Assembly (NCBI GenBank): GCA_008729055.1
Contig: SDUX01000090.1
Location: 1 to 64,000 of the forward strand
Length of the DNA stretch: 64,000 nt
Origin: Pyropia haitanensis
Lineage: Eukaryota; Rhodophyta; Bangiophyceae; Bangiales; Bangiaceae
Reading direction: 5' to 3'
The notes beneath the pieces are model-generated. The model had not been told where the DNA came from. It saw only the letters and a program-made list of their open reading frames with translations, and did not search any database. A program made the translations under genes and the position numbers. Positions 7,441 through 39,747 of this stretch are shown piece after piece. Position 1 is the first letter of the stretch. Each line of letters starts with the position of its first letter.

Positions 7441-9221
7441 GAGCCGCTTTCCCCCCTCTCCCTCAGAAAGCCATGTGACCAATCAAAGTGCAGAGAACTC
7501 TTCGGGGGGCTCTGCTTGGGGGCGCTTTTGTTTTCACAGCACGTCTCAGCAGCCCACAACACCTGAGTCAGAACCCCAACTCTTGGTCCGTGTTGCGATC
7601 TGGTCACTCGTCGCACTCTGGACCTGCTCACCCAGCCGCAAGCCAATCGGCGTTGGTTTCGTTGCGGTGCTCAGAAAAGGGTCCATCTCTGTGACCAACC
7701 ACATTGCGCCCTAACTGCTGACAGAGCCGGAAATTCCGAGGAATTCTGTTGTGCCATGCTGAGAACTGCTGTGACCTCTTCTGGCGATCCCATCATTCTT
7801 CTGCAACCGGCCATATCCCCCCTCCTTTCACAGCCTTCATTTACACACACAGCAACTGCTTGCCGCCTCGCAAAGTGGCCGGCACATTTGCCAGGTTCTT
7901 ATCAAAGGGACTGTGGTCTACCTAGAGAAAGTTGTGAAATTTTAGAGGAGGCACTGGGCCTCGAGGCGTAGCGCCTGGCGAAAGCTATCCCAGACTCTGA
8001 AAAGCAGGGGTGAGCGCCCTCTCCTCCATGCGGGAGAATGGCACAGGAGCGGGGCCTGTCACCGAACACGGGCTTCTATCACAACGGGCAGCTATTGGGC
8101 TGGAAAGAAGGGGGGGTTCGTGAACATGTAGGCGGCGGGCGCGGGCAGGGAGTCGGGGACGGTCTGCACCGGCTCGTAGGTGCCGGATGGTAGCCCACGC
8201 TGAGAGCGCCTGCGTTCGAGGAATGAGTCAGTCGGTAGCCAGCAGTAGTGGCACCCGTAAAGACGCCAGTAACGCTGACAAAATGGGGGTGCTACTTTAT
8301 AAACTTGAGTGGATTTGATTGGTGCTCAACTGGATCCATGTGGGAGGAGTGGGCTGGAGCAGCGCTGCAGAGGACCAATCTCCGGGAGGTACTGTATGAA
8401 CGCGAGCACGAACACGTGCTCGTACGTATGATTCGTGCCAAGCGGAGCCGATCCCCCTCGACAACACGTTTGTGCTATGATACGTGCTGCCAGATAGAGT
8501 ACAGTATTTTGTGGATACAGTTCCCGTATGCGGCCGGCGCCGCTGCTGCGCTGTGTCAAATGCGCCTCGTGCCACCTTGTCCCCCTCGCCCTCCTCACGA
8601 GCTGCAATGGGGGCGTCCCGACCCTCTCGGGCAATGATACGCTTTGGCGCGTACCGTCCCTGACGCAAATGTGGATCAGCGACGCAAACATAGATCACCG
8701 GAATCGTCGATTCCAGCTCATTTGCCCGTTGTTCTCTGTGTTTTTGACCGGCTTTGATCGCTGCTGGACGTCCCGCCAGAAAAAAATAGATGGACATGGA
8801 GCTTGTAGGTAATAGGCGACCATCACTGTGTTTTTTTTTTTTCTTGGATCGAAGTAGAAGTACGGTGATCGCCTATGAGAATAATATAGGGCATCGCGCT
8901 GGAACAAAGTGCCGGGAACGTTCCACTCGTCGATCGATCGCTCTGTCAACTTGATTCAATTGCAATCCCCTTTGATCCATTCCACATGGGCCACTACGTC
9001 TGATGCGCGCGCTCTTGCGGCAGGTGCTCCGACGCGTCAGGCTTACCGCTGTGGGGGGACCGACCCCTTGGTAAAAACCCTCGCACTCGCAAAGATTCTC
9101 ACCCACAGTGATAATGAACATCCGACGATTGCCCGCGTTGCGGCTCGTCGGAGAGGGAGGGGCCGCTGCAACGGCCAGCCGCGTGGGGCGCCCCGCGTGA
9201 GTACCGCGGTGTTGAACCGTC
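7441..9221. other. Intergenic region, no gene recognised
   Basis: Composition is ordinary and no frame has convincing protein-like content. The part nearest 9,221 lies immediately downstream of the Fanzor gene on its own strand. In this family that is where the guide RNA would be expected, but no RNA could be defined by eye. A hairpin with a poly-T loop lies at 8,812-8,876. Confidence 0.6.
8812..8876. repeat. Short inverted repeat with poly-T loop
   Basis: ATAGGCGA at 8,812-8,819 pairs with TCGCCTAT at 8,869-8,876. The pairing can be extended imperfectly inward (CATCAC against GGTGAT). The loop holds an uninterrupted T run from 8,831. It could be a tiny inverted-repeat element remnant or an RNA hairpin. 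Confidence 0.45.
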
Positions 9222-12200
9222 TCACGCGTGGGGTGCCTCCCCGCCACCAGCCGCCGCCGCGCCGCCCCCCTCCCCGCTCGCCGCGACCAGCGGGTCCGCC
9301 GCTGCCCCGCCCGCGCCGCGCCCATCCGCCGCCCCGCCCGTGCGGCCGTTCCAGTCGATCCGCGGCCACCGTACGTGGGCCGCGGTCCGGAACGGGTGGC
9401 ACGGGCGCCCGCGTATCCACTGCCACGTGCGCCAGCCGAGGTTGGCCGCCGCCGTCACGTCGCGGTTCACCATCCCTCGGGCACACGTCGGCTCCACGCA
9501 AACCTTGACGCACCACACCACCGCCTTGCGGTCCGCCCGAAAGACCGGGCCCGCGTGCGGCCGCGGGTGTGCAGCCGCCCGTGCCGTCGCGGCGTTCTCC
9601 GCCTCGGCGCGGCACGCCGCCCGCCGGCGGGCGTACCGCACCGGCGCGCTGCGGTCCCACCACCCGCGCTGCACGCCGCTCGGCCGGCCGGTGCGGCCGC
9701 GCACGCCACGGCGCCGCCCGCACACGCGCGTGCCGCGGGGCATTTGCGGCGGAGACGCGGGCGTCGGGAACACCAGCGCCAGCCGCGTGTGGCAGCCGTC
9801 GCAAGCTGCACTCGTGTTGCGCTCGGGCACGTCCACCGTCCAGCACAGGTGGCGCAGGCGCCGCCACAGCTGCGTCGCCCCCCCGCGTGTCGCCGCGTCG
9901 CCCAGCGCCACCGCCACCACCGACCCGTTGACAACCCGCCGCAGACGTCCGCCCGTCAGCTCCCGCTCGACGCGCGCCGCAAACCGCCCGCGCTGCAGCA
10001 CCCCGTACAGCCGCGCCTCGCGCAGCCCGCGCGTCGCCGCCGACCCCCACACCGCCTCATACACGGGCTTGCAGCGGGCGGCCAGCCACTCGCGTGACGC
10101 GACTCGCACCGCTTCCGCGTCGCCCACGCACAACGTCGCGCGCTCCGTCACCTGCTCGGGTGTCCGCACGCCCGCGGCATCTCCCAGCTCGGCGATGCGT
10201 GCCACGGCCGCCGCGCGATGGTCGGCTACCGCCCGCGTCGTCATCCCATTCCCGCTCTCCTCGTGGTACCGCCCGCGCGACAGGCTGTAAACCGCCCCGG
10301 GGGGGGGGGGGCGCGCCACCCGCGGCTCGCGCGCGTCGCCGCACGCACTCGCGCCGCCAGTGCCCTAAGCGCACCGGCGTACGTACCCGCGGCCGCGCGG
10401 TCGGCCGTCACTGCTGCCGCGCGGTCCGTCAGATACGCCTCCGCCAGCGGACGCCCGTCGTCCACGTCTGCCACCGCCATGCCGCGCGTCGCGCGGGGCA
10501 GGCACGCCAGCGCAACTCGCACCGCCGCGTGGCGCGGCACCCGCCACCTCCCGCGCCCGGTTGCCGCCAGCAGCTCGCGTAGCGCCTTGCACAGGTCGAC
10601 GCGAGCCGTGCGTCGCAGGCGCCGCGCGGCGCCGCGCACGCGCCGCACGCACCGGCGACCTGAACGCGGCGGCATGACCGCGGCTGCAGCAGCGGGGGGG
10701 GGCAACGCGTCTGTGCTGCCGGCGGCCGCCGCTCCGCCGCGTGGCCGCTTCCTGTCCGCGCCAGACCCGGCACCCACGGCTTGGCGCTTGCCAGCGGCCG
10801 CCTTGGTGGCCACGGCGGGGGGCGTCCCAGCTGTCGCCGCGGCCGCCGCTTCAACCTCCGCCATCTGGCCCTCTGTCAGGCCGGCCGCAGCGGTGACTCC
10901 AGCCTCCACCGCCAGCGCAGCGCGCATCAGCGCCTCAACCGCGACCAGCCTCGCTCGCGCGCATCGGGTCGCCCACACGCGGCTGCGGGCCGCCCACTGA
11001 GCGGCCGTCGGGCCGCTTGACACGGCCGTCAGCACCGTGGCTACACCAGGGTCCGCCGACACCACAGTCAGCCGCGACACGCCAGCCACGGGGCAGCCTT
11101 GTTTTTCTAGCTGCGTGGTGGGTGACCCCGCGACCCGCCGCCGCACGCGCGCCCCATCGCGCCGCCGCTTCGCAGCAGCAATGTCCGCAGCCTCGGCTTC
11201 TGCAGGCGTCGCCGGCCGGGACACCGTAAAGGCCACCGCCACGCCGTTGGTAGTCAGGTTCGCCCCGACAGAACGCGTTCCGCTGCCGATCGGCCGGCCG
11301 GGCAGGCGCGCAGCGAACGCGGCCGCGCCACGGTCCCGCACCGCGGCGCGGAAAGCGACGTCACCAACGCGCAGGGAGTTTACCAAACGGGTCAGGCGCA
11401 GCCGCGTAAACGTGCCGTGCATGTGCAGCGGCGCGGACTTGGCGGGGACCAATGCGAACGGGCGGCGGATGCCCTCGCGTTGCACGGCCACGACAAAGGG
11501 GACGTATGCCCACCAACGCGCCACGACAGCGACGTGGCCGCCCGTCGGGAAGAGGCGCGTCGGCCGCTGCCTCACGGGCTGCACGCGCGCGCGTATCGCA
11601 GCGATCGACGCCAGTACCGCCGCGCGCGCCGCGGCGTCCGGCACGGCAGCGACGAACTTTCTTGCGGCTGCCCCGGTCGGCTCGTCGACGCCACGCGAAA
11701 AGCACCTCAGAGCTGCTGCAAACACTCCTCGGCGTCCGTCGCTGCCGCGTGCGCCCACGGCGGGGGGGGCCGCGTCAGTCACGGCGCCCGCCAGGCCGCG
11801 CAGCGCACGCGTCACGCGCTGCGCCGTCGTCTGCGCCAGCCGCGTTACGGTCTGCGTCCACCGCATGCGATCGTTATTGCCCGGAAGGTGCTCGTGGCAC
11901 GGAGAGACGAGGGCAGGTGATAAGTCCCTCAGCGCCATCTCCGCCGCAGCAAGAAGCGTGGGCGCCGCACCGCGCGGCGGCTTGGCGGGTGGTGGGGGGG
12001 GGGGTCAGCAGCCGTGTGTATGCAGGGCGACTGAGCCGGTGCTCGCGAGCCCGCCCACACGTTCCGCACACATCCTCCCCGGACAGGCTCCCGCCGAACG
12101 CGCCACGGCAGCTGACTGCGTTCGACGCCCAGCTCCAAAAGTCCGTCCACCCCTGCGTCGTTGCCGGCAGTGCCGCGTCCCACGCGTCCGCACCAGTCGC

Positions 12201-13227
12201 CGGCAGCAGTCGGTGAACCGTGTTGACCCACAACAGTCGCAGGCACAGGTCAAAGTGTGTGGCATGGCGCGCCACCGCCTCAAATGCCGCCGTCAGGCCC
12301 GACGCAGCGGCCGCGTCGCCAGGGGCAGGCGCCACCGCGCGCACAACAAACCCCAGCGGCACCGGCACGGTGTGCGTTACCGTCGCGCGGTTGGCGTACG
12401 GATCGGTTGCCGCCACGTCCTCGCCCCGATCGTGCACATGCGGGAGGGACGCGCCACCCCACGCCCTGGCCGGGCACACCGTGGACCGCCTCGGGTGCGT
12501 GCGGCCGCAGCAGTTCTGGCAGGGGGGGGGGGGTTGTGGGCCGGCCGGTGCCGCTGTGCGTCGCGGCTCCGCCTCGACCGAGCGGCGGGCGAGGCCGCGC
12601 GCCGTCGGGCCGACCAGCGCCGCCGCCCGCACCGCTCGGGCGGCCAGCCGTGACGCGTCGACGCCGTCCGGCGCGTGCGCGGCGACCCATTCGGCTGCAG
12701 TGGTCACCGCGGCGGTCACAGCTTCCTCGTCGCGGGTGGCCATGTCAACGACCGCCGTGCGATGCGCCACGTCCGTGGTGGCGTCGGGGGGGGGGGGGGG
12801 GGGGGGGGGCGTCCACCACCGCCGCGGCTGTGCGCAGAGCGGCGACGACCGTGTCGAGGGTGGCATCGCCTGGGGGGGGGGCGCGCGCCCGTGCCACAGC
12901 CTCGACGCGCGCCAGAAGCAGCCGCAGTCGCCAGCGTTTCACGCGCAGCGCGGCCAGCAGCGAGTCTCGCTCGTCGGGCGGCAGGGGGGGCGCTTCCTGC
13001 GCGTCGCCACCCGCCGCGTCCGAGCCCTCGTCGGTCCCAGCAGTTGACGCGTCCGACGCCTCGCTCCACGCAGCAGCATCCTCGTCGTCGTCGCCGACAC
13101 GGACGTCGTCCTCTGACGCCGTGGCCGACGCGTCGCCGCACGCATCGTCGGCGTCCAGGTCGGAGCCGTGCTTATCTGCGGCATCGTCGTCCTCCAGCGT
13201 CGCGCTCGACGCCTCTGTGCCGGGCAT
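9222..13227 (-). CDS. Fanzor (eukaryotic TnpB-like RuvC nuclease), frame broken at three poly-G runs
   Basis: Fanzors are RNA-guided RuvC DNA endonucleases related to bacterial TnpB. Reading leftwards from ATG at 13,227 there is an acidic Asp/Ser/Ala-rich N-terminus, then a C-x2-C...H...C knuckle (CQNCCGRTH). Next comes a sheet-rich stretch ending TTNGVAVAFTV, then RuvC-I SADPGV with Asp codon 11,053-11,051. Further on are YSLSRGRYHEESG, the GDA motif, VPERNTSAACDGCH (Glu codon 9,824-9,822; Cys-x2-Cys), CVEPTC, and RuvC-III VNRDVTAAANL with Asp codon 9,461-9,459. The glutamate placed just before the zinc finger is the rearranged arrangement described for Fanzors. The reading frame changes inside G runs at 12,786-12,809, 11,994-12,004 and 10,299-10,311 and is otherwise open. 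About 200 Ala-rich residues separate RuvC-I from the next motif. The whole is near 1,330 codons, long for the family. Homology is strong; activity is uncertain. Confidence 0.82.
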
Positions 13228-13512
13228 GGTGGTCCGAGCCGCGCACCGGCGACGCGGCTCGGCGGGCGGGGGGGGGGGGGGGTCGCGGCCGGTCGTCCCT
13301 GCCCACGCACGCCGCGTGCGCGCGGAGTGGGAGCAGGTGCAGCAAAGCGCGACGCGGCGAGGGCCAGCATGCACATCTGAGCATGTGCGGCACCCGCCAC
13401 GCCTGCCGCCAGCAGCCCCATCGCTGCCCCCGCGACATGCATGCGCGCTGGCAACGGCACGCATGCGTGTGCTGTGCATCCGCACAGCAGCAACAGCTTT
13501 TCTCGATGACTC

Positions 13513-13740
13513 GGGGGGGGGGGGTGACACAAGTTCCCGGGCTTGTGAGTGCATGTGACGATTAAGTCGTCATATTTTTGGCCCACGGGGTGTGCGCGCG
13601 AAACGTCCACCAATCGCGCACGCCTGTACGGGGGGGGGGGGGGGCACAAGTAGATGGGCTTGCGAGGGTATGTGACGAATAAGGCGCCATTTTTTTGGCC
13701 CGCGGCGTGGGCGCACGCCAGGAAAAAAACCCGGGGAAAA
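13513..13740. repeat. Tandem pair of diverged ~117-bp repeats upstream of the Fanzor gene
   Basis: Two units begin with a poly-G run (13,513-13,524 and 13,630-13,644), followed by CACAAG, GGGCTTG(T/C)GAG, TATGTGACGA-like and TTTTTGGCCC words in the same order, offset 117 bp. They lie just upstream of the Fanzor start on its strand, so a promoter or transposon-end role is possible. That role is inference. Confidence 0.7.
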
Positions 13741-14690
13741 AAAAACCTCTGGCAGTGGCCATCCGCGCGACAGGGCACCTCCTCCTGCATTTTTCTGATC
13801 GTGGGCGCGGCAATCCTCGTCCGAAAGGGCCGCCAGGGCATGGCGTCACGGCCCCCTCCAGGCATTTTTCGGGCCAGTGTCGGCCGTGCACCACGGGCCA
13901 GTCCCTGCCGCCGCACTCCCCCCCTCCGTTGAGGATGGAAGACCGCCCCCGAGCTTGCGCCGCGCAAACTCATTTACAGACATCGCGGCGTCACTCGGGG
14001 GCGGCCGTCGGGGCCAGCAGCGGCTCGTATTTGATGGGGCCCGCTCTTGACAGTAGCCACATTTTCGAATGTTGACAGGTGTCCATTCCGCGGCCCGTAG
14101 CCTTCTGGGCCTGGCCCCGGGATCCAGCACGCTGGCCTGGGCCGCTGGCCCGACACCGATCGCCGCAGATTGTGGGGGCGCACGGTGGCGCCGTCTGTGA
14201 ACCGATCGGTGTGTACCCTCGTGGACACGTATATCCAGATATGCGTCGGCAGCCGGCGCAGTCAACCAACCACATAGAGGCACTGCATGACAGTCGGGAG
14301 ATTTATTGCACTCTATTTTTTCATTCGCTGGTGGCACTCGTGACCTCCTGGGCGCGTCATTGCTCATCGCTACCCTCGTCGCCGCCCTGCTCGCCACCCT
14401 GCTCGCCACCCTGCTCGCTACCCCCCTCACCACCTTCTCTACCGCCGCTGCTTGCGGGCAGTGTGCCCTTGCCACGGGCGCCGCGCACGACTGCCGCACT
14501 CGTGGTCCGCATTCTTTGTCCCCACCGCCACCATCCCCCCCCCCACCTCCTGTGCCCTACTCCCAGGCGCGGCCGGATGCTCCCATTGGTGCCGCTTGTG
14601 CAGCCAACGACGTCTACGACCCGCCACAGCCGGTCGCGGCCGCGGAAGTTGCGGCCGTAGCCGCCACGTTGCAGGTGGGGACGGCTGGGG
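13741..14690. other. Intergenic region with short repeats
   Basis: No gene is recognised. A 21-bp imperfect palindrome built on TTGCGCCGCGCAA lies at about 13,951-13,971. A 12-bp repeat, CTGCTCGCCACC, is present about three times at 14,389-14,424. In one minus-strand frame it would encode Glu-Gln-Gly-Gly repeats. Confidence 0.5.
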
Positions 14691-15491
14691 CTACGGCGCG
14701 GGGGGCTGGGCGTCCGGGGCGGTTGCATCCGAGGCAGCGGCCGGACAAGTCGCCCGCAGCCTCCATCCGCCAGCCTTCACGACCCTCTCGGCGTTTTGCG
14801 TCCCCTTGACGGCGGCGGGGGGCTGTCCCGGCGCAAGAAACCAGATACGGCGACGGGCTCTAGACGCGTAGCGCGCCCCCTCGCTGGCAATGGTGTATTG
14901 GCTGACTGCCGCCGCAACTTTGCCGTGGTCCTTCGGAGTGACTTCCTCGATCTTCCGAGGGCAGGTGGGGCACTGGGCTGGGGGGGGCGCGGCCTGTTGA
15001 GGGGCTGCCGGCCGCGATGTCCTCTGAGAAGGAGCACTTTTGCAGCGACCGGGAGGCTTCTTATGAGGGCTCTGGAGGTGCGTGCTCGAGTCGTGTTGCC
15101 CCTTTTTTTGCGTCCCTGGCGGGCGAGGCCCTCGACTTCTACCTACCCCAAGATTTGTTGCAGGCGCTATTGCACCATCGTGGAGGTGAAACCGGCGTCG
15201 AAGCTGTGCCCATCGGCGCAAACCGTCAGGCGGCCCATCCGGGACCCGCCACCGAGGACCATCCCAACCTCGACGACCTGCCGCCCCACAGGAAGCTTCC
15301 ACGAGAAGGAGCGGCGAGGCAGCCACGGGCTGAGCGGCGGGGCGCGCCGCCGCGACCCGAAAGGCCGAAGACGACACTTGAGGCGGATGGAGGTGGGCTG
15401 TCTGGCGGAGCGTCGATTGCTGCTCTGGCTGGCAAGCTCCAGGACGCGGTGCTCGTCGGAATGGACCTGTTGCAGGAGGACTTCCGCGCAC
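14691..15491 (-). CDS. Possible protein of unknown function, antisense to the KDZ start
   Basis: A 266-codon minus-strand frame ends at 14,691. Its second half has an ordinary mixed composition, including the words KIEEVTPKDHGKVAAAVSQY and RRRIWFLAPGQ, and a CPTC pair. That is more protein-like than expected for a shadow. The first half is Pro/Arg-rich and overlaps the KDZ transposase start on the other strand, so only the part left of about 15,020 may be real. It could be a divergent passenger gene of the KDZ element or a host exon. No family recognised. Confidence 0.22.
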   Translation of the reverse strand: MRGSPPATGPFRRAPRPGACQPEQQSTLRQTAHLHPPQVSSSAFRVAAARPAAQPVAASPLLLVEASCGAAGRRGWDGPRWRVPDGPPDGLRRWAQLRRRFHLHDGAIAPATNLGVGRSRGPRPPGTQKKGQHDSSTHLQSPHKKPPGRCKSAPSQRTSRPAAPQQAAPPPAQCPTCPRKIEEVTPKDHGKVAAAVSQYTIASEGARYASRARRRIWFLAPGQPPAAVKGTQNAERVVKAGGWRLRATCPAAASDATAPDAQPPAP

Positions 15492-16959
15492 CCGGTGGTG
15501 CCGACGCGATCGTCCAACCTGGCCACGGTGGGCGAGCCATCTTTTTTTCGCATGCCCGCTCCTCGTTTGTCGTGTGGGCCGCTACCACCGTTGCTGGCGG
15601 CGTCGGCTTTTTTTGCTCCTGTGGCGGTGAAGGGATGGCAGACAACGTGACTGCCAGCGTGCGGTCTGGCGTGTCGTCCCGTTGTCGGCACGCGGCAGCG
15701 CACGCGCTTGCTTTGCGCGACGTCGCCCGGCACCAACTGTGCTCCTCTGTGCCCGATCTGCTTCAGCGCTTCCCTGCTCTGGATAACGCACGCGCTGGCG
15801 CGGACGACGTGGTGTCTGTGCCTGTTTTCGAGGAGGAGACGGGGCGGTCGGGCCACATTGTCGGGTTTAACCGCATCTGGTGCATCGTCATCACGCCACC
15901 TCGCTGGTCCCGTCAGTCCAGGCCTGTATGCTCCCACGTGCCCTGCCGTACGAGGAGCTCATACTGCATCCATTCGTGCGCCGTTCAGCCGCCGGCGGGC
16001 GGCTACGGTGGGTTTGAGATCGATAGCGATGGCGATGATGACATGCCGGACGCGGGCGACGAGGACGTGCAGCAGCAGCGGCTGGGCCCAGACGTCGAGG
16101 AGCAGCAACAGCGGCTTCGCCTGGACGACGAGGAGCAGCAGCAGGAGGACCGCGTCGGCGAGCGGACTCCGCGGCAAGACCATGGTGAAGACCGTGCCGA
16201 TGGGCGTGTACGCCCGGCCGGACGCAAGGCCCGCAAGAAGGGGCAGCCCCGGTTGTTTATCGACACCGACCGTCTGAGGAGGGCTCGCAACATGATGCCA
16301 TGCAAGCAGGAGACGGACGAGTGCGCGCTGTGGGACAAGGTTGGACGCGGAGAGGTGGTCGAGGGCGTGTCGCTGGAGGTGTTTGAATCGGACTGCCCCA
16401 GCTGCGGGTCGGCTGCTGGCGAGCTGGAGGCGGCCGTTGCGGCGGACCTGCACACACTCTCTGGTCGGGCACGTGTCCTTACGCGGCAGTGGGTGTGTAA
16501 GGGCGAGGAGGGGAGGCCGTGCGGCGTGACGGTGCCGTTTGACGGTGCCGCCCACGGGCTTTTTGCCTTTTCCGGGGCCACCGTGTACACGCGGACATTG
16601 CTGGACGTCATCTTGTTCACCATCATCTCAACCAAGAGCTCCATCTCTGCCGCCTCGGCGGTCCCGGCGTTCCAACTGCACTGCAGCGGCATGGTCTTTG
16701 ACGGCGACTCCGCGCAGTCGCGGCAGGCGCTTTCGTTGGCGACCGACGAGTATGCCCGCACCCTTCTCGTCCCCGAGGGCCTCTACAAGTGCGCCACGTG
16801 CTACCACTGCAGCGAGACGCCGTATCAAGCCGTGGTTGCGGATGGTCAGACCATCGGCATCTTTCGGGATGCTTCATTCCCGTTTGAGCGGGACACCTCC
16901 AACGTGCCCACCATCCCGATCTCTGTCGACAACGCCTGCACGGTGCCGATGGCTAAGGT
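15017..16959 (+). CDS. KDZ-type transposase, 5' part (interrupted by gypsy element)
   Basis: This is the N-terminal part of a DNA-transposon transposase of the Kyakuja-Dileera-Zisupton group. A SWIM zinc finger is visible at residues 200-225 (FCSC...SRCRH, the Cys-x-Cys...Cys-x-His pattern). It is followed by a Gln/Asp/Glu-rich linker, a basic stretch, and Cys pairs (CPSCG, CKGEEGRPCG, CATCYHC). The word VADGQTIG fits the first catalytic Asp region of the RNase-H-like core. The frame ends in the target duplication AAGGT, where the gypsy LTR starts, and the codon split there is completed by the sequence at 24,334. The first ATG is used; later Met residues are possible because the N-terminus is low-complexity. 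Confidence 0.8.
16955..16959. other. Target-site duplication AAGGT, left copy
   Basis: These five bases sit directly left of the gypsy LTR and recur at 24,329-24,333 directly right of the other LTR. That is the usual duplication length for Ty3/gypsy integration. Confidence 0.95.
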
Positions 16960-17820
16960 TGTGAGGCACCACCCACACACGGGCAGCCCTCAACGTACTG
17001 GCGCCGGTGTCAGCAACCCGTGCACCAATGAGGATGCCGGGCGCGGGGAAGGTGACGGGTGGGATGACGGTGATGGGGGTGGGGAAGAGGATGGGCGTGA
17101 CGTCGGTGAGGGTCGAGGGGGTCGAAGGTAAAGGAGGTCTTTGTGTCTCTGTCTGTCGTTCCTCCCCCGAGGTCTCTCCCGGTGGCGCCCACACTCACGC
17201 ATTATATACCCCCAGGGGGGCACCCAGGGTGCCCCAAAGCATGCGATTGCCCGTCGTGCCGGTGGACGGCACCAAAGCTCTCAAAACAAAGCATGGGCTC
17301 TCAGAACAAAGCAAGGGTGGGCGTGTGCGCCCCAAGGCGCCCCACCAGAAAGCCCCAAACGGGGGGGGGACGGTGTGCGGCGCTCGTAGCGCCGCGCGGC
17401 TGGCCCCACGCGCCATTCGACCCGAAAAGCCTCAGAGGCGTGTAAGCAGACGCCAGTCTTCGGGTCGAATATCTCCCGTGGGTCAGCAAGTCTTGTCGCT
17501 CCCATTGGTCCACGGGGAGATTGTTCCGGCTTGCTGACGCGTCAGAGATGTGGCTCGTCTTTTGGTCCGTTAGTCCGTTGATCCGTTGGAGACTGTACCC
17601 GTCGGCAGATGAGTCAGGGTAGTGTCGGTTAGCCAATCCGCGGCTCCCGTGCTGACCGTCCGTTAGTAGTAGATTATCGGACGGACACCGCGGCATGCCC
17701 CAGATTACTTTGGAGTTGATGCGTCTTGGAAGGAGTTGGCTGAGAAGGACAGGGAAGGAGAGGCCCCAGTCCTTATCCCCTAGGCTCCAGTCTTGGGGAT
17801 TTAAGGGGCATATCCTTTCA
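16960..17820 (-). repeat. 3' LTR of the gypsy element
   Basis: The 861-bp LTR is nearly identical to the copy at 23,466-24,328. It starts TGTGAGGCACC and ends CTTTCA on the plus strand. A TATATA box lies at 17,203-17,208. Confidence 0.95.
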
Positions 17821-17833
17821 CCTCCCCCCCCTT
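17821..17833 (-). other. Polypurine tract of the gypsy element
   Basis: On the minus strand the sequence is AAGGGGGGGGAGG, directly abutting the 3' LTR, where plus-strand DNA synthesis is primed. It overlaps the pol stop codon (17,832-17,834). Confidence 0.85.
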
Positions 17834-20800
17834 AGGACGCGCGGCGCAGGAAAGCGTCCAACACCTCAGGTGCGTTCGCAAGGTCTTGCTTGGTCAGCCA
17901 GGAGTTCTCGCTGACGTCACAGCCTTTCCACTTGACCAGGTACTGTAGTCGTCCACGGCGCTTTCGTGACCTTATGATGGAGTCGACTTCGTACTCGACA
18001 GAACCGTCCGGAAATGCCACCGGAGGCGGAACGGGAGGAAGTCGGCCATAAGGATCAGCGCGGTACGGCTTCAGCAAGCTCGCATGAAAGGCGTTGTGAA
18101 CCTTGCGATCGAGCACCGCTTGGGGAAGATCCAGGCGGAACGTCACATCGTTGATACTCTCAGTGACGCGGTACGGTCCTGAGTACTTGGGCATCAGCTT
18201 GCGAGCGCCTTGGAAAGCATCTGGCATAAGGTGTTTGGTACTTAGTAGCACCAGATCGTCCACGGCGATCTTGCAAGGTCGGCGATGGCGATTTGCGTAC
18301 GCCGAGCGCGCCTCATTTGCACTCTTGATGGCTGAGATGGCAGTCTCTTGAGCATGTTGGAGACCGCTTAGCCAGTCAGACACTGCAGGCATGCTTGACT
18401 CTGAGTTTTCGAGGATGTCCATTGGTACCGTCTTAGGTTCGAATCCGTAGTTCAGGAAGAAAGGGGAGTACGTTGTAACAGCACTTGGCGACCGGTTGTA
18501 GGCTACTTCGGCAGCAACCAGAAAGAGGTCCCAATCGCCTTGGTGATGGTTGACAAAGTTTCGCAGGATTTCTTCGATCTTCTTGTTCATGATCTCAGTT
18601 TGTCCGTCGGTTTGCGGGTGGTACGCTGAAGAGGCCTTGATCTTGACCTTGAGAATCTCCGTGAGCGACTGCCAGAAGTTGGAGAAGAAAATGCGGTCCC
18701 TATCGCAGACAAAATCAGCTGGGAGTCCGTGGTGTCGATAGACGTGATCATGGTAGAGCTGAGCTGCGACTGGCGCCGTGCAGTCTGGCTTCATAGGGGC
18801 GAGGCGAATCATCTTGGAGAGGCGGTCGACAACGACGTAAATCCCGTTGTGGCCTCTTGGAGTCAGAGGAAGAGGCGTGATAAAGTCCATGGAGACACTT
18901 GCCCATCGTTGGCTCGGGGGGTCCAAGGGTTTGAGGTGACCCAGAGGTGAATGGGTGCTAGCCTTGTTCCGCTGGCACAAATCACATGTTTGTACGTATC
19001 TTTGGATGTCTTTCCGCATTGTCTTCCAGTAGTACTTGGAAGAGATAACCTTGGTTGTTTTCTTGACTCCCATGTGCCCTTGGCACGGGAAATCATGGTA
19101 GTCATGGAGTAGTCTTTGGCGTAGAGTACCGACGGGGATACACGTACGGTCACCTCGTTTCAACAACCTCATGTGTAGCCGGTAGGGAGATACCGGGTCT
19201 TTGACTAGGTCGGCAAACTCGGGGTCCGCGTCGTACTCTTGTCTTAAGGTGGCAAGGTCTTGATCACTTTGGTTGATGGTCATGAGGTTGTTGATTTCAG
19301 TTTTCTTGGGGAGTTCTTCAATGGTCTTGGTCAGCACGCGACTAAGAAGGTCTTGATTGGGGGCGTGCTTGTCGGGAGCATCTTGTGGCTGCCTGGAAAG
19401 GGCATCAGCCACGGGGTTCGAAGTGCCCTTGATTGGGACAATCTTGAACTGGAACTGGTCCAGAAACTCCAGCCACTTGACTTGGCGATCGTTCAGCTTC
19501 TCTTGGGTGCTTAGGTATCTCAGGGACTCATGGTCGGTGTGGACCTCAAAGGGTCTTCCGTAGAGGTAGCAGCGCCAATGCCGGATAGCTTGTACGACTG
19601 CAAGCAGTTCTCTTTCACGAATGCTGTAGCGCTGCTCGTGGATGTTGAGGGTTAACGAGAAGTACGCCACTGGACGCCGTCCGCGTCCATCATCTTGCTC
19701 AAGGACTGCGCCCACAGCATACCCGCTGGCATCTGTAGACACGTAGATTGGGTATCTCTTGTCGAAAGGCCTTAGCACCGGTGCGCTTGTCGTTAGGTCC
19801 TGCAGCTGCTCAAAGGCTTTCTGGGCGTCGGGTGTCCACTCGAAGTCGACATTCCCAGTCAGCCTCGTTAGCGGCGTAGCTACGGCAGCCATTCCCTTGA
19901 TGAATCTTCGATAGAAGTTGACCATACCGAGGAAAGATTGTACATCCTTTTTGCTCCTCGGTGTTGCCCACGTACGGATGGCTTGGACCTTGTAGTCTTC
20001 CATAGAGAAGCCTTTCTCGGAGATGACGTGGCCAAGGTAGTCCACAGTAGTTCGAGCGAACTGGCACTTGCTCAGCTTGGCGTAGAGCTTGTGTTCTCGT
20101 AATTTCTCGAGTGCTAATCGTAGGTGCTTGAGGTGATCGTCGTAAGTTTCGCTGTAGACTAGGATGTCGTCGAGGTAGACACAGATGAAGTCGTACAGAT
20201 AGGGTCGGAAGACATCGTTCATTAGGTTCATGAAGACCGCGGGTGCATTTGTCAGACCAAAGGGTACGACGGTGAATTCATAGAATCCGTACTTGGTTCG
20301 AAACGCCGTCAAAGGTATTGTTTCTGGGTCAAGGCGAATCTGGTGATAGCCAGAGCGGAGGTCGATCTTTGTATAGTACTTGGCCTTTCGCAGTTGGTCA
20401 AAGATGTCGTCGATGCGTGGTAGTGGGTACGCGTTCTTGATAGTAGCCTTGTTCAGGGCCCTGTAGTCGATGCACATTCGCCAGCCACCGTCCTTCTTCG
20501 CCGCAAAGAGGACGGAAGAGCCCCACGGTGAGGTGCTTGGTTGGATGAATCCCTTCCTTATGAGGCCGGCCAGTTGAGTCTTGAGTTCTTCGAGCTCCCA
20601 TTCGGCTAGTCGGTAAATTCCGCTACGACGCGGTTGGGCGTCATCGGTCAGCTTGATGCTAAATTTGTGACTGCGCTCAGGAGGGAGTCCGTCGGGGAGC
20701 TCGTCTGGGAAGACGTCAGCGTACTCTTTGAGAATCTCTTGAACTTCTTTCTTGTCTTCGCCTTGTCCCATCGTAATGGCGTTAATGTCGAAGGTGCTAG

Positions 20801-21323
20801 AGGGATCTTCCGACTGCAGGTAGATGGCAAAAACAGGGCACCTTTGAACGAGGTCCCGAGCAAGGCGTTGCCGACTGATCAGAGCTTCGGGCTTCTTAAG
20901 GGAGGCAGTGATAAAAATGTTCTTGTGGTTGAACTTGAAGGAGATCTTGTTTTTCTTGTTGTTGATTTTGGCGTCCTTGTCATCGCGCCACTTCTTTCCC
21001 AGGATGAGGTCGTACGCGCTCAATTCACAAACAGCAAACCGAAGTCGCTCTTGGTACGGTCCGATGTGAATCTCAAGAGGGTCAACGGTTTCAGCGAGGA
21101 CATGGGAGCGGCCATCGGGCATGCTTGCCGCGAAGTCCGTTCCTTTCGTTTTCACATGCAAGGAGGTAACGAGGCGCCTTGAGACGACGTTGATGGGAGA
21201 TCCGTCGTCGAACAGCACCTTAACAACTTTTCCATTGACAGAAGCAGTAGAAAGCAGAAGCCCGAGTCGCGGGCCTTCAAATGGTGACGACATATTTTCA
21301 GGAACCGAAGGAGCGTCTTTCAC
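17832..21323 (-). CDS. pol: Gypsy Pol polyprotein: protease, RT, RNase H, integrase, chromodomain
   Basis: The frame is intact over 1,163 codons. In order it has an aspartic protease (LFDDGSPIN, residues 38-45) and a reverse transcriptase with YLDD at 383-386. RNase H follows ([10 protein letters not shown], Asp531). The integrase has a His-His-Cys-Cys finger (H743, H750, C780, C783) and a core triad Asp813, Asp874, Glu910. A chromodomain (residues 1109-1163, with YLVKWKG and NSW) ends the protein and in this clade directs integration to chromatin. Pol lies in a different frame from gag; the gag stop is at 21,347-21,349, just upstream of the first pol ATG. Frameshifting or an upstream non-ATG junction would therefore be needed for a Gag-Pol fusion. 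Codon use is much less GC-rich than the neighbouring genes. All key residues are present. Confidence 0.97.
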
Positions 21324-21346
21324 AGATGTTGAGGATTGTTGCTGCT

Positions 21347-22225
21347 TCAGTTCCGCTGGCCTTTTGGGCAGTCCTTAGCCATGTGTCCTTTCTCGCGACA
21401 GCGAAGGCAGAGACCCTCGCGCATGCAGCGCTGGCGTTCGTCTGGCGTCAGCTTTTCGATCTTGATGCTGGAAATGTCCATCGGGACAACGCCCATCGTC
21501 GGTGGCTTGCCAGAAGTGCTGTTAACATTGCTGGTGATACGGGACTCTCCAGCCTTGCCCGCTTCCACGCGCAGGGCGTCCGTCATCAGTGATTCAAGAT
21601 CGGTGTACGTCTTGAGGCACAGTGCCTGCCAGATGTCGCGCTTCAGGCCTCGGCTACAGCGGTCGATCTTTTCCGCTTCGGTGTTGTCCGGGATGTCCAA
21701 GAGGACGCTCAGGAAAGTCCTGTTGAACGTCCCGACGTCCTTGATTTGGCGCCATGAGTGCAGCTTGTCCCGCGCCGCCTGCGTCTTGTTCAGAGGGCTG
21801 AAGCGACGGATGAGCGCAGCCCGAAAGGTAGCCCAGTCGGGGACCGCCGTCGTCCGACTGTAGGTATGCCACCAGGTGAACGCTTCACCGTCCAGGTAGG
21901 TGCAGGCGATCCGACACGCTTCGTCAGGGTCAGTCAGTCGCACATATGAGTCCATGTGCGAGCACCATGCTTCAATTGTCCCGGGCTTGCCAGAGAACAG
22001 CGCGGGCTTATTCGGCCTCGCAGTCGTCGCGCCTCCACTCGAGGCCTTAGCCTTGGCGTCGGACAGCTGTTTCTTGGCGTCCGCCAATTCAACCTTATGA
22101 GCCTCGAGCTCGGCGCTCATCTGCGAGACGAACGCTGTAAGTTGATTCCATGACTCCGCGCAGGGTGCGGTTGAGGCCGTTCCCGGATTAATCGGGCTTA
22201 CAGTCGCAGGATTCGGGGGGTCCAT
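21347..22225 (-). CDS. gag: Gypsy Gag with CCHC zinc knuckle
   Basis: Gag forms the particle that packages the element RNA. The frame is open from 22,366, but the ATG at 22,225 (MDPPNPATV) is the likelier start because the 47 residues before it are Cys-rich and unlike Gag. It contains a coiled-coil-like segment, then the retrotransposon Gag core ([33 protein letters not shown] words), and ends with [14 protein letters not shown], a Cys-x2-Cys-x4-His-x4-Cys nucleic-acid-binding knuckle. It precedes pol on the same strand with the usual order and spacing. Confidence 0.93.
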
Positions 22226-22589
22226 TGCGTCCTGGGTGAGGTCCGCAACAATCAAATTAACCCAACAGATCCGGTTTGACTTACTCCGGCAGAGCACGGG
22301 GCAAGTCTTACAAGATGTGCAAGTTAATTTGACCAAGCAAAATAGTGCTGCACTAGCTCTGGACAAGCGTGGCCGTCGTGGCTACCACGTTCCCAAAGAT
22401 GGACAACACTATTTGATGGGTCACAAGCGATGCGATGAAGCAGAATTCGAAGACTCAAATCACGCAATCGGATTTTCCCTCCGGCCGCCGCGCACGGGCC
22501 CGAGTCGGGTCGTGCCGGATTTCCACGCGGGGGGATCAAAGGGGGAAAATCGCGTCTCTTGCACAGATCCTGGGGGGTGTTGCGAGGTG

Positions 22590-23228
22590 TCAGTCGGTGC
22601 GGCGCGCCAGCGTGCGGTGGTGATCCTTGCCACGCTGGTGGCGTTCGAAGTGCTCGACCGTCTCAAATTCGCGATCGCACACGTCGCAACGAGGGCGGGT
22701 CGCTGGACGGTTGACCGTATTGCGGTGGCGCCGCGACCAGCGATGGTCGCGCAGCACTGTCAGGCTGTTGCAACGCACACCGCACGGCTCGCAAACGTAT
22801 TTGCCCTTGGGGATGGTCTTGGCGATCCGGCGCTGCTCTCGCTGCTCAGCTGCGCGCGCGGTCGTCGGTCGGATGTGGCCGATTCGTGGGGCCGGCGGCG
22901 CGATGTAGCGCCGGGCCGGATCCTGCGCGGGCAGCAGCAGGCGCCAGTTGGCTGGGACCGCCGGTCCTGACGTAGCCGGGCCCTTACCCTTGCGCGAGAG
23001 GGGGGGCTTGGATGCGGCTGGCGCCGCCGATGCGGCCGTCGCCGCCACAGAGGATGACGTGGATGCGCCCGCCGGGGTGCCACGTGCCGCCGCGGTGTCG
23101 CGCGCCGCCGCGGTGCCGCGCGCCGCCGGGGTGCCGCGCGCCGTCGGGGGGCGCGCCGTCGCCGCCGAGGAAGTCGGGGCGTCCGCCAACGCCGAGGAAG
23201 AAAATTCCGAACCTGATTTGGCACTCAC
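22590..23228 (-). CDS. Extra ORF of the gypsy element with two C2H2 fingers of the long-spacer type
   Basis: This 212-codon frame lies between the 5' LTR and gag, on the gag-pol strand. The N-terminal half is low-complexity with a 6-residue repeat (ARGTPA-like, 18-bp units near 23,085-23,160). The C-terminal half has two fingers, CEPCGVRCNSLTVLRDH...H and CDVCDREFETVEHFERH...H. Both have Cys-x2-Cys-x12-His-x5-His spacing, as in U1-type/matrin RNA- or dsRNA-binding fingers. Such a gene is not part of a standard gypsy element. Its codons are much more GC-rich than gag-pol, suggesting capture of a host exon. The function is unknown; binding of element RNA or chromatin is speculation. Confidence 0.7.
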   Translation of the reverse strand: MSAKSGSEFSSSALADAPTSSAATARPPTARGTPAARGTAAARDTAAARGTPAGASTSSSVAATAASAAPAASKPPLSRKGKGPATSGPAVPANWRLLLPAQDPARRYIAPPAPRIGHIRPTTARAAEQREQRRIAKTIPKGKYVCEPCGVRCNSLTVLRDHRWSRRHRNTVNRPATRPRCDVCDREFETVEHFERHQRGKDHHRTLARRTD

Positions 23229-23443
23229 TGGGTTTCGACAATCAGTCGACCAAAAGAAAAAAAACCGTGACAGGGGCCACCAGGGCAGTGTCAGGGCAGT
23301 GTTCTTTCGGTGTGATTCGTGGAACCCGCTGCGTTCGTATTACAATGCCCGAGGCACGCCGAACACAGGGGGCAGCACGAGTGCACAAACACAGGGAGGG
23401 CCAAATCCAGGACGGAATCGCAACGTCACCGCCAAGAGGAAGT

Positions 23444-23463
23444 CAAACTATCTGAAGCTACCA
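23444..23463 (-). other. Candidate primer-binding region of the gypsy element
   Basis: On the minus strand, two bases after the 5' LTR, the sequence starts TGGTAGCTTC. A TGG start is expected for pairing with a tRNA CCA end. The matching tRNA is not identified; the last seven bases (GCTACCA on the plus strand) would fit several tRNAs. Confidence 0.4.
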
Positions 23464-23465
23464 CA

Positions 23466-24328
23466 TGTGAGGCACCACCCACACACGGGCAGCCCTCAAC
23501 GTACTGGTGCCGGTGTCAGCAACCCGTGCAAGCCAATGAGGATGCCGGGCGCGGGGATGGTGACGGGTGGGATGACGGTGATGGGGGTGGGGAAGAGGAT
23601 GGGCGTGACGTCGGTGAGGGTCGAGGGGGTCGAAGGTACAGGAGGTCTTTGTGTCTCTGTCTGTGGTTGTTCCCCCGAGGTCTCTCCCGGTGGCGCCCAC
23701 ACTCACGCATTATATACCCCCAGGGGGGCACCCAGGGTGCCCCAAAGCATGCAATTGCCCGTCGTGCCGGTGGACGGCACCAAAGCTCTCAAAACAAAGC
23801 ATGGGCTCTCAGAACAAAGCAAGGGTGGGCGTGTGCGCCCCAAGGCGCCCCACCAGAAAGCCCCAAACGGGGGGGGGACGGTGTGCGGCGCTCGTAGCGC
23901 CGCGCGGCTGGCCCCACGCGCCATTCGACCCGAAAAGCCTCAGAGGCGTGTAAGCAGACGCCAGTCTTCGGGTCGAATATCTCCCGTGGGTCAGCAAGTC
24001 TTGTCGCTCCCATTGGTCCACGGGGAGATTGTTCCGGCTTGCTGACGCGTCAGAGATGTGGCTCGTCTTTTGGTCCGTTAGTCCGTTGATCCGTTGGAGA
24101 CTGTACCCGTCGGCAGATGAGTCAGGGTAGTGTCGGTTAGCCAATCCGCGGCTCCCGTGCTGACCGTCCGTTAGTAGTAGATTATCGGACGGACACCGCG
24201 GCATGCCCCAGATTACTTTGGAGTTGATGCGTCTTGGAAGGAGTTGGCTGAGAAGGACAGGGAAGGAGAGGCCCCAGTCCTTATCCCCTAGGCTCCAGTC
24301 TTGGGGATTTAAGGGGCATATCCTTACA
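23466..24328 (-). repeat. 5' LTR of the gypsy element
   Basis: The 863-bp LTR starts TGTGAGGCACC and ends CTTACA. It differs from the 3' LTR by roughly eight substitutions and a 2-bp indel near 23,532. Confidence 0.95.
23711..23717 (-). promoter_or_regulatory. TATA box in the gypsy 5' LTR
   Basis: On the minus strand the LTR contains GGGGTATATAATG, a good TATA box directing transcription toward gag and pol. It would place the RNA start roughly 650 bp into the LTR. Confidence 0.55.
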
Positions 24329-24333
24329 AAGGT
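24329..24333. other. Target-site duplication AAGGT, right copy
   Basis: It repeats 16,955-16,959. One copy plus the flanking bases restores a continuous codon series in the KDZ gene. Confidence 0.95.
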
Positions 24334-26053
24334 GCGCAAGTGCATCCGGCAACGGCTGGAAGCGTCGTATGATGTGGAGGTGGGCTTCACCAAGCCTGAC
24401 CAATTGGCCATGTCCAAGTTTGTGGCGCTTGGGACCGTGGCCCCCCCACTGGGGGATCACTCGGACGCGTCCCACAGAGCTGAGTGCGCTGTCTGGGCGG
24501 CAAGCTGCGTCTTGTTTTCCTTTTTTGCGCTGTCAGCAGTGCCTCGGCAGGAGCGGGTCGACCGCACCGGGTCATCGTCCGACTCCGCGCCCGTCCCCGC
24601 GTCGTCACCCATGGACAACCCCGCTGAGGAGCTGACGACGGCGTCCTCCACAACCTCCTCCTCTACCATTCTCGACGACGGGTCCGTAGCACTGACGGGC
24701 AACGGAGAGCGGCATACTCTCAGCGGTGGCGGCGAGCCACTGGGCAACGCGCCTGCCAAGCCCATCCAGGCTGTTAAGCAGTTTAAGTACTGCAACGTCA
24801 ACCCCGCATCTGCAGGAGGAAGGGCTCTGCTGCCGGTGGTGAGGAGGGAGAGGTGGAGTATCCTGTTCAACTTTTTCAGGACTTTTGTGGCGGAGCCTGT
24901 CCTGGGCGTCTTCGCGGGCTGCGTCGTCGCCGACGTGTCGGCCCTGGCGGACGCTCTCATTGCGGGCAAAACTCAGGTGGAGTGGCTGCCGCTTTCGACG
25001 TGCATCCAGTCTATACATGTTGTTTGGCCGGTGCTCGACATGCTGGCGGATGACTTGGACTCGGACCCGGAGCTGCGCCGCGCGTTTGGGGAGCTGCTGA
25101 TGTTCTCCCTTCACGCAGATCTGCACATGGAGGAGCTCTGGCGGGCGCAGATGAACGCAGACTCGCTGAGGTATGAGGCCCAGTGGACCAACACGGACGC
25201 CGCCAAGTTCAAGACGTGGAAGCGGGAGCAGCCCATGCCGGCAAGACCGCAGCTGCCGACCGGACTAAGGGCGCAGGCGGAGTCACGCGGACGTGTGCTG
25301 AACCAGGCGGATGAGGTGCGGTCTGGCCTGGTCTTCCCGTCACTCGACCAAGTACGCACGCATCCTCGGGACGACGCTGCGGCGGCGGCGGCCCAAGCGG
25401 GGAGGGAGAAGGCCAAGACCAAGAGGGCGGCCAAGCGCAAACGGGCGGAGATGATTGCGGCAGGGCTGGGCGATGATGACTGCCGCCACAAGTTCCTGTC
25501 TCATGCGGAGTTCACCCCTGGTGTGGTCTCGTACCTCTGCATGTGTGGTGTGCTTATTGGTTTTGAGGTACTGGAGAGCGCCGAGAGTCCAGCAGGCATT
25601 GTTGCTACCCTCGCCGCTCGCTTTCCCCGCCTGCCCACGACCGTGTACTTTGACACTGCTTGTCAGGCGTCTAGGAACGCGACGCGCCGCGTGCCTTGGC
25701 TGGTGCGTCTGTCCAAGACGGCGTGGGCCCTGGACCGTTTCCACGCCCCAGGTCACAAGTGCTCCCCCCTCTTTGACGCAAACAACTACCCCGCGCGGTC
25801 AGGTCTGCACAAGACCTCTGCTGCGGAGAACAGGCACTCACTCAACAAGCCACTGAAGAGCCACCTCACGTACCTGGCACAAGATCGTTTCGTGGTGCAG
25901 ATGAGAATGATCGGGGCCGTGAACAACATGTTGATCATGTACCGCCGCGCGCTTGGCAAGACGGACGTACGCCACCGCCCGTTGCCCTCTTTCTTCCAAG
26001 AGCGCATTGCAACTCGTTGCGAGCGAGTTGGCTGCCTGTGTCGCCGAGGATAA
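24334..26053 (+). CDS. KDZ-type transposase, 3' part (catalytic core)
   Basis: This continues the gene broken at 16,959. The summed length without the insertion is 1,220 residues, close to the 1,194 of the second KDZ gene in the window. Conserved core words are VYFDTACQ, LDRFHAPGHKC, SAAENRH and MRMIGAVNNMLIMYRRA. They match the family pattern Y-D-x-A-C, D-x-FH...H...C and a late Glu, the residues expected to form the RNase-H-like active site. A basic Ala/Lys/Arg segment (KTKRAAKRKRAE) may be a nuclear localisation signal. The stop is at 26,051-26,053. No further lesion is seen, so the gene was apparently intact until the retrotransposon landed. Confidence 0.85.
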
Positions 26054-29000: not shown

Positions 29001-29247
29001 TTTTGTTGATAAAGGGACGGCAACTGGCGGCCGCGTGCTGCCGCTGGTCACTACTAGCGCCTGCCCTGTGCTCTGCTGCGTGTTGCTGCGGTTAGTTTAG
29101 CCTTTTTTCTACATCTTCGGCCAGACGCACTGAGGCCTCCGCGCTTCTATCGTGGCCAGGGTGTCAGGGGTAGCACACACTCCAGTGGGACGTTTGTTTC
29201 TTGGGGTACGATCCCTGACTCCATGTTGCTGGCTTATCAGTTAGCGT
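26054..29247. other. Intergenic region between convergent KDZ and Ulp1 genes
   Basis: No protein-like frame is seen. A diverged direct duplication, offset 173 bp, is visible: GACACCGTCCAGCT at 27,340 and 27,513, followed in both by CCAGCACGT, CACA and ACAGACTG words. The region probably holds the 3' ends of both genes and possibly internal transposon sequence. Confidence 0.55.
27340..27685. repeat. Diverged tandem duplication, 173-bp offset
   Basis: Two units share GACACCGTCCAGCT, CAGCACGT, GGTAACAGACTG or GGTGACAGACTG, and GGCTGT...GCTTTCA words in the same order with many substitutions, indicating an old duplication. Confidence 0.6.
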
Positions 29248-32200: not shown

Positions 32201-32451
32201 GCCCCCTCATTGACGGTCAACGCCGCATCGTACAACACAATAAAAAACGACCGGCCCGTCGTCTGGGACACGCCCGAGACGTGCAAATGGCACGACAGCT
32301 TGGGGCACCGCCTCTCAATCTCGTGCAGGTTCGAAAACAGCTTGGACACGAGGTCAGCGAGGTCCGCCGGGATGGCCGACACACCAAGAAGCGCCTTGAT
32401 GAGCTCCCGCAGCTTCTCCATCTGCTGCGCGTCTGTGACGCTGGGCGCCAT
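29248..32451 (-). CDS. Ulp1-like (C48) cysteine protease, probable partner gene of the KDZ element
   Basis: Ulp1 proteases cleave SUMO and related modifiers. The frame is open from 32,631. The ATG at 32,451 (MAPSVTDAQQMEKL) is preferred because the 60 residues before it are Pro/Arg-rich. Counted from the first ATG, the catalytic residues are His976 (SRSHWIAF), Asp993 (TTYDSG), Gln1057 and Cys1063 (QNDTCSCGPFSF), in the order and spacing of the C48 family at the C-terminus. The long N-terminal part has a helical opening, an Ala/Gly/Pro-rich variable region and basic words (KRGSAANTPAGKKRQR) resembling a nuclear signal. It runs toward the KDZ transposase gene. Ulp1-like genes are known passengers of several large eukaryotic DNA transposons. 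The frame has no stop or frameshift. Confidence 0.85.
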   Translation of the reverse strand: MAPSVTDAQQMEKLRELIKALLGVSAIPADLADLVSKLFSNLHEIERRCPKLSCHLHVSGVSQTTGRSFFIVLYDAALTVNEGAKRVIKSVYTHLLSDRSMAMTAALWRQSLARPPAAPVAYAVAGAQPVAATEPDVFRTQGDAGGPASPARTSGGTPALASGAPAAGRRALVHLSADVAPAALQAAKDALAHDPDGGSVLRGASDDAARPPGAANGPQELDSWRDGASGLDGAPTGGSGLGGVLDGGAGRDDAPKGVAARGGVATGAALQLGSASSAPSSATSHGFGGLTELGVLTSRFEKPQVHVPSAWAAACVEALFSAMKKGWAGLIRATMAEARSVLCARYNIANKPKVQGMLAWWPIDLDSAPVDVAVGDTSPDKRGRRGKPAKQCINFSFLVAVQKRHLPEVQRSREIENMETMVIMVSGVNPPRSSVLHEVVAALLLLIDKEQCVSDLLVRKLAEYGIVPCASGQDAGEDALDEVDRNDDRLTDGFLSSSRRPSPAGSSSPLPPTGTGPPSAQQGIQNNGAPNAVAARLAARQAAGAAGLLEAAAAKLTAASKKAQLSTQLPRKRGSAANTPAGKKRQRVGAEHDGHEAARAADFVIPDLQPAMEVIVLPLLEEAAMIETHTYLTLATNWHFPVVDTRNPLTEVLEATQAEWPAIVAGQRDVNCILDVGSLRKVRKELMVKAEDMRARNEIDADHECPVYANAVARDESEEQLKKASGEETDQQHVSRPDKPVRQVQLTLPTLQAMDQLLVAADRLEHLRATVSWLLEVVSLPNSRVPSYVGDERKSMGVMATEVMQRLLACNPTTTVWRLGTPATGAMDEDVVVPAHLIVSTLQATWMADDIITVNTLILQRHCQTAGSRVCVVQCSLMSRILAAQDSDLGALVDEVRILMGASTAFAGVCNISRSHWIAFSVDLASKTVTTYDSGTHFVSLKDAVRVARKRFMQFGKEMRQHMEKVDGEEVASTDGVQGVGQKSKAWSPRLIKTPAQNDTCSCGPFSFSFVWNVARGQPCTVLTSDGHALRLEMVAAVVRDGIEQDHALSMRGTTAQAAAASSQVEL

Positions 32452-32631
32452 AGCAACGACAGCCACTGAGCCACCTCGTTCCAATAAAGATGGCGGCGGC
32501 CGACGCAATGAAAGAGCTTCGGCGATGGTGGTGCCGCCGGACCGGCGACAATGCAGCCCAGATGTGCCGACGTCGGTAGTGTTGAGCAGCTGCAGCGGCG
32601 GCGGCCGTCGAGACGGATGCGGTGGTTGCAA

Positions 32632-36102: not shown

Positions 36103-36141
<39 letters not shown>

Positions 36142-39060: not shown

Positions 39061-39095
39061 CTCATAATTTCCGATGCGGCAGCCCGCGTTAGCTA

Positions 39096-39745: not shown

Positions 39746-39747
39746 TA

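Follow-up and report, generated by a model that had tools for sequence, protein, structure and literature searches.

A broken mobile-element copy probably encoding a very large Fanzor nuclease and its right-end RNA in Pyropia haitanensis

A stretch of 64,000 nucleotides from the red alga Pyropia haitanensis (assembly GCA_008729055.1, contig SDUX01000090.1, positions 1 to 64,000 of the forward strand; G+C content 66.2%), hereafter termed the window, very probably harbors a mobile element, here in a broken copy, with a gene for a very large Fanzor nuclease and with a guide-RNA scaffold, the latter overlapping the stop codon of the gene and extending to the right end of the element. This copy belongs to a multicopy family with a conserved protein, a conserved right-end RNA, sharp ends, and single-frame relatives. 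The preliminary description of the locus had reported a Fanzor gene with a full set of RuvC motifs and three frame breaks, and had missed its multicopy status, the single-frame relatives, the right-end RNA, and the element ends.

The family adds an apparently recently mobile lineage of Fanzors, probably in a multicellular alga, which is too divergent for standard models. Its right-end RNA is now defined and ready for testing, experiments are within reach thanks to near-identical copies whose frames are intact, and the large insertions raise the question of what additional parts eukaryotic RNA-guided nucleases acquire. In one limited paper collection, no paper was found that links Fanzor with Porphyra, Pyropia, or Bangiales; Fanzor is mentioned together with Rhodophyta or red algae in passages of PMC3627910, PMC10820777, and PMC12451028, among others.

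The gene family and the structure of the element

The genome searched comprises 52.9 Mb in 136 contigs, in which the last coding piece of the window gene (piece 4) matches at least 40 places, the window included. Among the matches listed, three full-length sister copies at 99% and seven at 85-89% together constitute type A, some at 70-79% represent A2 and one shorter A copy, nine full-length loci at 55% plus fragments form type B, and five at 39-45% form type D, the remainder being partial or more distant. The near-identical copies point to a recent spread of the family. The features of the window are as follows.

9041..39876, minus strand: whole A-type element, left end at 39876 (GAAGCTACACTC...), right end at 9041 (...CAGCGGTAAGC), 30,836 bp with the later insertion counted
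9041..13930, minus strand: right part of the element (putative Fanzor gene and RNA), matched at 99% by copies on contigs 11 and 9
13931..33244, no strand assigned: later insertion of 19.3 kb, 8-bp duplication CCTCCGTT at 13923-13930 and 33245-33252, with a Ulp1-type peptidase ORF and a nested Gypsy element
33245..39876, minus strand: left part, of very high G+C content and without a recognised domain, with segments shared by copies c11a and c3a
12786..13227, minus strand: coding piece 1, the acidic N-terminal part, beginning with the ATG at 13227
11994..12809, minus strand: coding piece 2, cysteine motifs and beginning of the conserved part, aligned to intact copies
10301..12004, minus strand: coding piece 3, TNG (TDG-like) at 11243-11251 and RuvC-I DPG at 11045-11053, aligned to intact copies
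9222..10310, minus strand: coding piece 4, shifted E at 9822-9824, CxxC at 9792-9803, CVEPTC, NRD aspartate at 9459-9461, stop codon at 9222-9224
12786..12809, plus strand: G run of 24, frame break 1, length different in two of three sister copies
11994..12004, plus strand: G run of 11, frame break 2, length different in all three sister copies
10299..10311, plus strand: G run of 13, frame break 3, length equal in all four near-identical copies
9041..9225, minus strand: structured RNA, candidate omega-RNA scaffold, modelled core 9041-9157

The window gene thus runs on the minus strand from its ATG to its stop codon in four open pieces, each internally stop-free. The RuvC-I aspartate (11051-11053, context SADPGVATVL) is in frame within piece 3, while the shifted glutamate (PERNTSAACDGC, ERNTSAAC), six residues ahead of CxxC, and RuvC-III (MVNRDVTAAANLGW, with the NRD aspartate) are in frame within piece 4; the earlier claim that all these motifs and the cysteine pair share one strand is therefore borne out.

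Relatives with single frames are present elsewhere in the genome. Open frames span 1531-1556 codons in type A and 1380-1440 in six of the nine full B loci, the other three B frames having 426, 668, and 847. Counted from the first likely ATG, the proteins measure 1394 aa for type A (copy c2a, pieced from two adjacent stretches of one contig) and 1323 aa for type B. By base composition, 21 stops would be expected in the A frame and 15 in the B frame, and the chance of none is 1e-9 and 4e-7, respectively. The A and B proteins share 50% identity with a dN/dS of 0.45, and piece 4 of the window gives 0.25-0.28 against three A copies, which indicates that the A and B proteins were kept. Among three protein database matches, one had a named source, Pyropia yezoensis. 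Piece 4 had no match in phage records, and a search for viral relatives of the B protein yielded eight pattern-matching stretches in viral contigs, none of which was confirmed. Two further relatives (L041 and L042) are cut-off genes lacking the C-terminal part.

The ends of the element were delimited by comparison of copies. Copy c11a contains the insertion-free site and joins the sequence of 33245-34709 directly to the right part, on the 5' side of the gene; c3a shares 38548-39876 and ends at 39876 with a different flank. The left end recurs at 15 places (190 or more of 200 bases aligned at 99% or better, window and c3a included) and was read in nine A-type loci, all beginning GAAGCTACACTC, and in two B loci as TAATCTACCCTC, with the first base uncertain. 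The A ends have a common inverted GTGGGGGGACCG, but their outermost bases differ. No target duplication of the element was seen by eye in the eight loci with both flanks read, and A or G precedes the left end in 9 of 9 A-type loci, a sample too small for a TAM call. Ends paired by strand and nearness lie 3.8 kb apart in c3a, 9.7 and 18.3 kb in two B elements, and 14.7-31.1 kb in seven A elements. The shorter copies had been considered as insertions lacking a target duplication, either 5'-truncated, LINE-like, or one-ended; this reading was dropped for c3a and the window since, given the true left end at 39876, c3a is internally deleted and the window copy is split by an insertion. The preliminary description had regarded the frame breaks as the only lesions, which stands for the coding pieces and fails for the element, split at 13930 by the 19.3-kb insertion.

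Several other segments were noted. According to Pfam, the insertion at 13931-33244 harbors a Ulp1/C48 peptidase ORF (29251-32634, minus strand) and a Gypsy-type ORF (17835-21374, minus strand); two further ORFs in it had no Pfam match, and by eye we take them to resemble KDZ-type transposons. The stretch 33245-37500 of the left part reaches 87% G+C per 2 kb and contains long alanine/glycine/proline-rich frames, three ORFs of which were tried without a Pfam match; no transposase was recognised in the left part, nor by eye in the ORFs upstream of B. Except for a repeat at 37562-38131, no compared sister copy covers 34709-38548, which may hence hold other insertions. That repeat is 98% like the sequence just past the right end of c9a and is probably another inserted element, and about 660 bases with inverted ends at 39100-39760 look MITE-like by eye. 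In their upstream part, the B loci L031 and L032 contain 168-base direct repeats in a segment with 94-97% similarity to one lying upstream of A copies; with the A and B proteins only about 50% identical, it is probably a separate inserted element.

Frame breaks in the window copy

The three frame breaks were located exactly where the preliminary description had placed them, in the G runs of 24, 11, and 13 bases. The window was compared with the sister copies c11a, c9a, and c9b. At 12786, the run counts 29 in c11a and 24 in c9a, as in the window, and is an interrupted, shorter run in c9b; at 11994, it counts 13, 12, and 12 against 11 in the window; and a fourth run at 12522, within an open piece of the window gene, counts 12, 11, and 11 against 12. 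The run at 10299 has the window length in all three sisters. Apart from the ragged start, four of five indels in the sister alignment fall in C-runs, the remaining one being an insertion of 1.9 kb in c9b. The suggestion that the gene, if its breaks are real, decayed only by slippage consequently applies to the coding pieces of the window copy, and not to the element or to the sister copy with the insertion. In the sister copy at 4.36 Mb of contig 9 (L004/L047), the 1.9-kb insertion lies in the RuvC region and has imperfect inverted ends.

Among 39 coding substitutions over the four near-identical copies, 20 are silent and 19 are not, compared with 11.2 silent ones expected (20 being reached in 5 of 2000 simulations). 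The excess is distributed unevenly: constraint is absent from piece 1, with 1 of 6 silent, and slight in piece 2 (6 of 13 silent, P 0.08), while pieces 3 and 4 show more (P 0.03 and P 0.02, the latter with 7 of 11 silent versus 3.3 expected). Coding sequence diverges by 1.0% (40 of 3999) and 5' noncoding sequence by 2.5% (12 of 472; Fisher P 0.0096), and the four frames are free of stops in every copy. This constraint argues against long-dead genes: either the breaks are young or wrong counts, or the substitutions stem from functional parents.

That the window gene is intact, or was so until very recently, with some or all of the three runs miscounted in the assembly, is a possibility to be reckoned with, albeit the less probable one. 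It would account for the silent excess, which includes piece 4 behind the shared break, for the lower divergence of coding than of 5' noncoding sequence, and for the stop-free frames. However, the equal length of the run at 10299-10311 in all four copies argues against a random miscount there, the first two pieces are the ones with no or little constraint, divergence in the 3' noncoding stretch is no higher than in the coding sequence (2 of 181, although this stretch is the RNA), and the substitutions may date from functional parents. A broken copy remains the preferred reading, and a full protein is probably not produced from it.

Resemblance of the protein to Fanzors

The motif trio of DPG, E-x6-C, and NRD was found across the A, B, and D families, as in the Fanzor1 proteins SpuFz1, GtFz1, and PpFz1, which share the DPG, the glutamate six residues before CxxC, the [TS][TS]xxC, and the NRD. 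DPG at RuvC-I occurs in piece 3 of the window and in all three families, and the E-to-C gap is six in A and B, the window reading ERNTSAAC and the D family EFNTSQAC. The exception is a D-type relative (L037:3085-4950), in which K replaces the shifted E and which, judged from its sequence, is probably inactive. PMC10711439 names DPG, together with a glutamate placed six residues ahead of the finger, as Fanzor signatures and TDG as a mark of Fanzor1; ahead of RuvC-I, where Fanzor1 has this motif in WED, A and D have TDG, the window TNG, and B SNG, so that this Fanzor1-like motif is present in some members. Among 716,434 six-frame residues, 28 instances of the pattern E-x-N-[TS][TS]-x-x-C-x-x-C were counted, every one at a match of this Fanzor-like family, in a scan that excluded the TnpB loci L078-L086, covered DNA mostly gathered for the family itself, and counted some places twice owing to overlapping loci.

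Profile searches gave fainter signals. Searched singly against Pfam and NCBIfam, the four window pieces fell into no convincing family (best E 0.078), and pieces 3 and 4 had no convincing match among solved chains. The signals came from relatives: no family other than PF07282 (TnpB/TNB zinc ribbon) was matched by at least two of 17 members (three at E<=1 for PF07282), and at E<=10 it was matched by five of seven proteins, that is, by 5 of 6 relatives weakly (E 0.001 to 0.15) and by neither window piece 4 nor L008. The best match (P0002, 19.6 bits, E 0.001) consists of two short stretches and lies below the curated cut-off of 26.3. A PF07282 search of the whole genome returned no match; the same search was positive in 6 of 14 control genomes. 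Profile comparison with nine TnpBs aligned the shifted-E/CxxC site at a probability of just 8.5-8.7%, its score of 32.1 exceeding the maximum of 22.8 in 60 column shuffles.

The spacing of the motifs departs from that of described members. Against the pattern D-X(125,275)-[TS][TS]XX-C4 finger-X(5,50)-RD, the order matched, but the distance from D to [TS] is 418 and 451 residues, in contrast to the 125-275 residues given with the [TS][TS]xxC...RD order in PMC3627910. By hand count, the two cysteine pairs of the finger are about 97 residues apart, the second being C-x4-C, versus 12-18 residues in the finger pattern quoted from PMC10711439, and the seven residues from the last finger cysteine to the final D fall within the range of known members. 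The proteins of 1323-1394 aa also exceed the Fanzor1 lengths stated in PMC11423790 (mostly 600-700 aa) and PMC10711439 (up to about 800 aa). The family thus appears, from its sequences, to carry long insertions inside RuvC and inside the zinc finger, which would explain the split, below-cut-off PF07282 match and the absence of genome-wide matches.

Weak or missing profile matches are what would be expected of an unrelated cysteine-rich protein resembling RuvC-III and the zinc ribbon by convergence; this is very unlikely, because the order of DPG, E-x6-CxxC, and NRD, the PF07282 matches in several relatives, and the conserved right-end RNA would all have to coincide. The Fanzor identity proposed in the preliminary description is accordingly supported, as Fanzor-like, by the motif order, by the weak PF07282 matches of relatives, and above all by the structured RNA.

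Right-end RNA and proposed mechanism

The layout at the right end is that expected of an OMEGA system, with a structured RNA reaching from the gene end to the right end of the element, followed by a variable flank. The first hairpin of the RNA includes the stop codon of the gene, its 3' end coincides with the right end (9041), and its closing stem stops two bases short of that end. The last 70 bases to 9041 are alike in ten A copies, the final base differing in two, and the host flanks are all different; the B right ends (9-10 compared) are identical save one base in one, again with variable flanks. A 200-base right end matches 37 places, including copies without a gene match.

Folding was better than in all but one of 200 shuffles in two families (z of -3.5 and -2.8). 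An alignment of 15 distinct ends (14 of 28 extracted, with near-identical and cut-short ends omitted, and one B end) gave a consensus of 53 pairs, 18 of which showed changes on both sides versus 8.6 by shuffling. When the columns were slid by 1-3, 45-54% of cells remained paired versus 94.8% unslid, a control in which the structure is favoured by its derivation from the same alignment and the sequences are related. Moreover, a core model of 117 bases, built from 14 sequences and run over ten sources, matched two loci outside its building set, on the same strand downstream of the gene, both of the D family, which is about 32% identical in protein: L039 (E 8.2e-7, about 100 bases past the protein match) and L040 (E 3.0e-5, about 1.2 kb past it). 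In both, the closing stem is present along with the first hairpin of the core, and the inner hairpins are absent. The other matches were the window and three loci used in building the model or repeating those, and nothing was found in L037, L038, L041, or L042. Run unfiltered on L037-L040 and L044, the model gave 34 matches at E<=10, only those in L039 and L040 being better than E 0.09. Rfam had no match for 8900-14000.

By analogy with studied Fanzors, the right-end RNA is read as the guide-RNA scaffold and the adjoining host DNA as the guide, which would begin where the closing stem ends. The Fanzor protein would bind this RNA, the guide RNA would comprise it plus the first bases of the flank, and the nuclease would cut matching DNA, thereby helping the element to persist. 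The RNA region of the window copy is intact, and this copy could ride along as a passenger; since the right ends of the copies are nearly identical, it is conceivable that proteins of other copies serve it.

Fanzor1 elements are among the closest known systems: they are mobile and multicopy, have a conserved RNA that begins at the stop codon and reaches the right end, and leave gene-less ghost right ends. For GtFz1, PMC10432273 describes an RNA that likewise overlaps the coding end, and for SpuFz1 ghost elements with an RNA-bearing right end and no nuclease gene, in contrast to which some ghosts here are cut-down pieces. The asymmetric ends, with no target duplication seen, are unlike Fanzor1. 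Fanzor2 and IS607 TnpB share the RuvC motifs and a right-end RNA but are much smaller, and no serine recombinase was recognised in the sequence read here. Cyanidioschyzon merolae, the single rhodophyte entry in PMC3627910, has a Fanzor1 as well, a likeness by description. More tentatively, and with the odds against it, the family might represent its own branch of giant Fanzors, roughly double the normal size, with long RuvC and zinc-finger insertions and elements of about 10 kb and more without a recognised transposase, in which nuclease and guide RNA would be the main visible machinery of persistence, perhaps of copying.

It is highly improbable that programmed or transcriptional slippage in the C-runs reads the broken frames or switches the gene on and off, as might be suggested by seven C-runs of at least 8 in the window gene versus a single such run per gene in two intact A copies, by run lengths varying among copies, and by constraint continuing behind the shared break, for C or G runs of at least 9 are common in the genome (0.73-0.78 per kb of DNA counted) and intact A and B copies manage without. 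Runs of at least 9 hold one strand over kilobases, all nine in 10299-13644 being G on the plus strand and nine consecutive ones in 35118-38171 being C.
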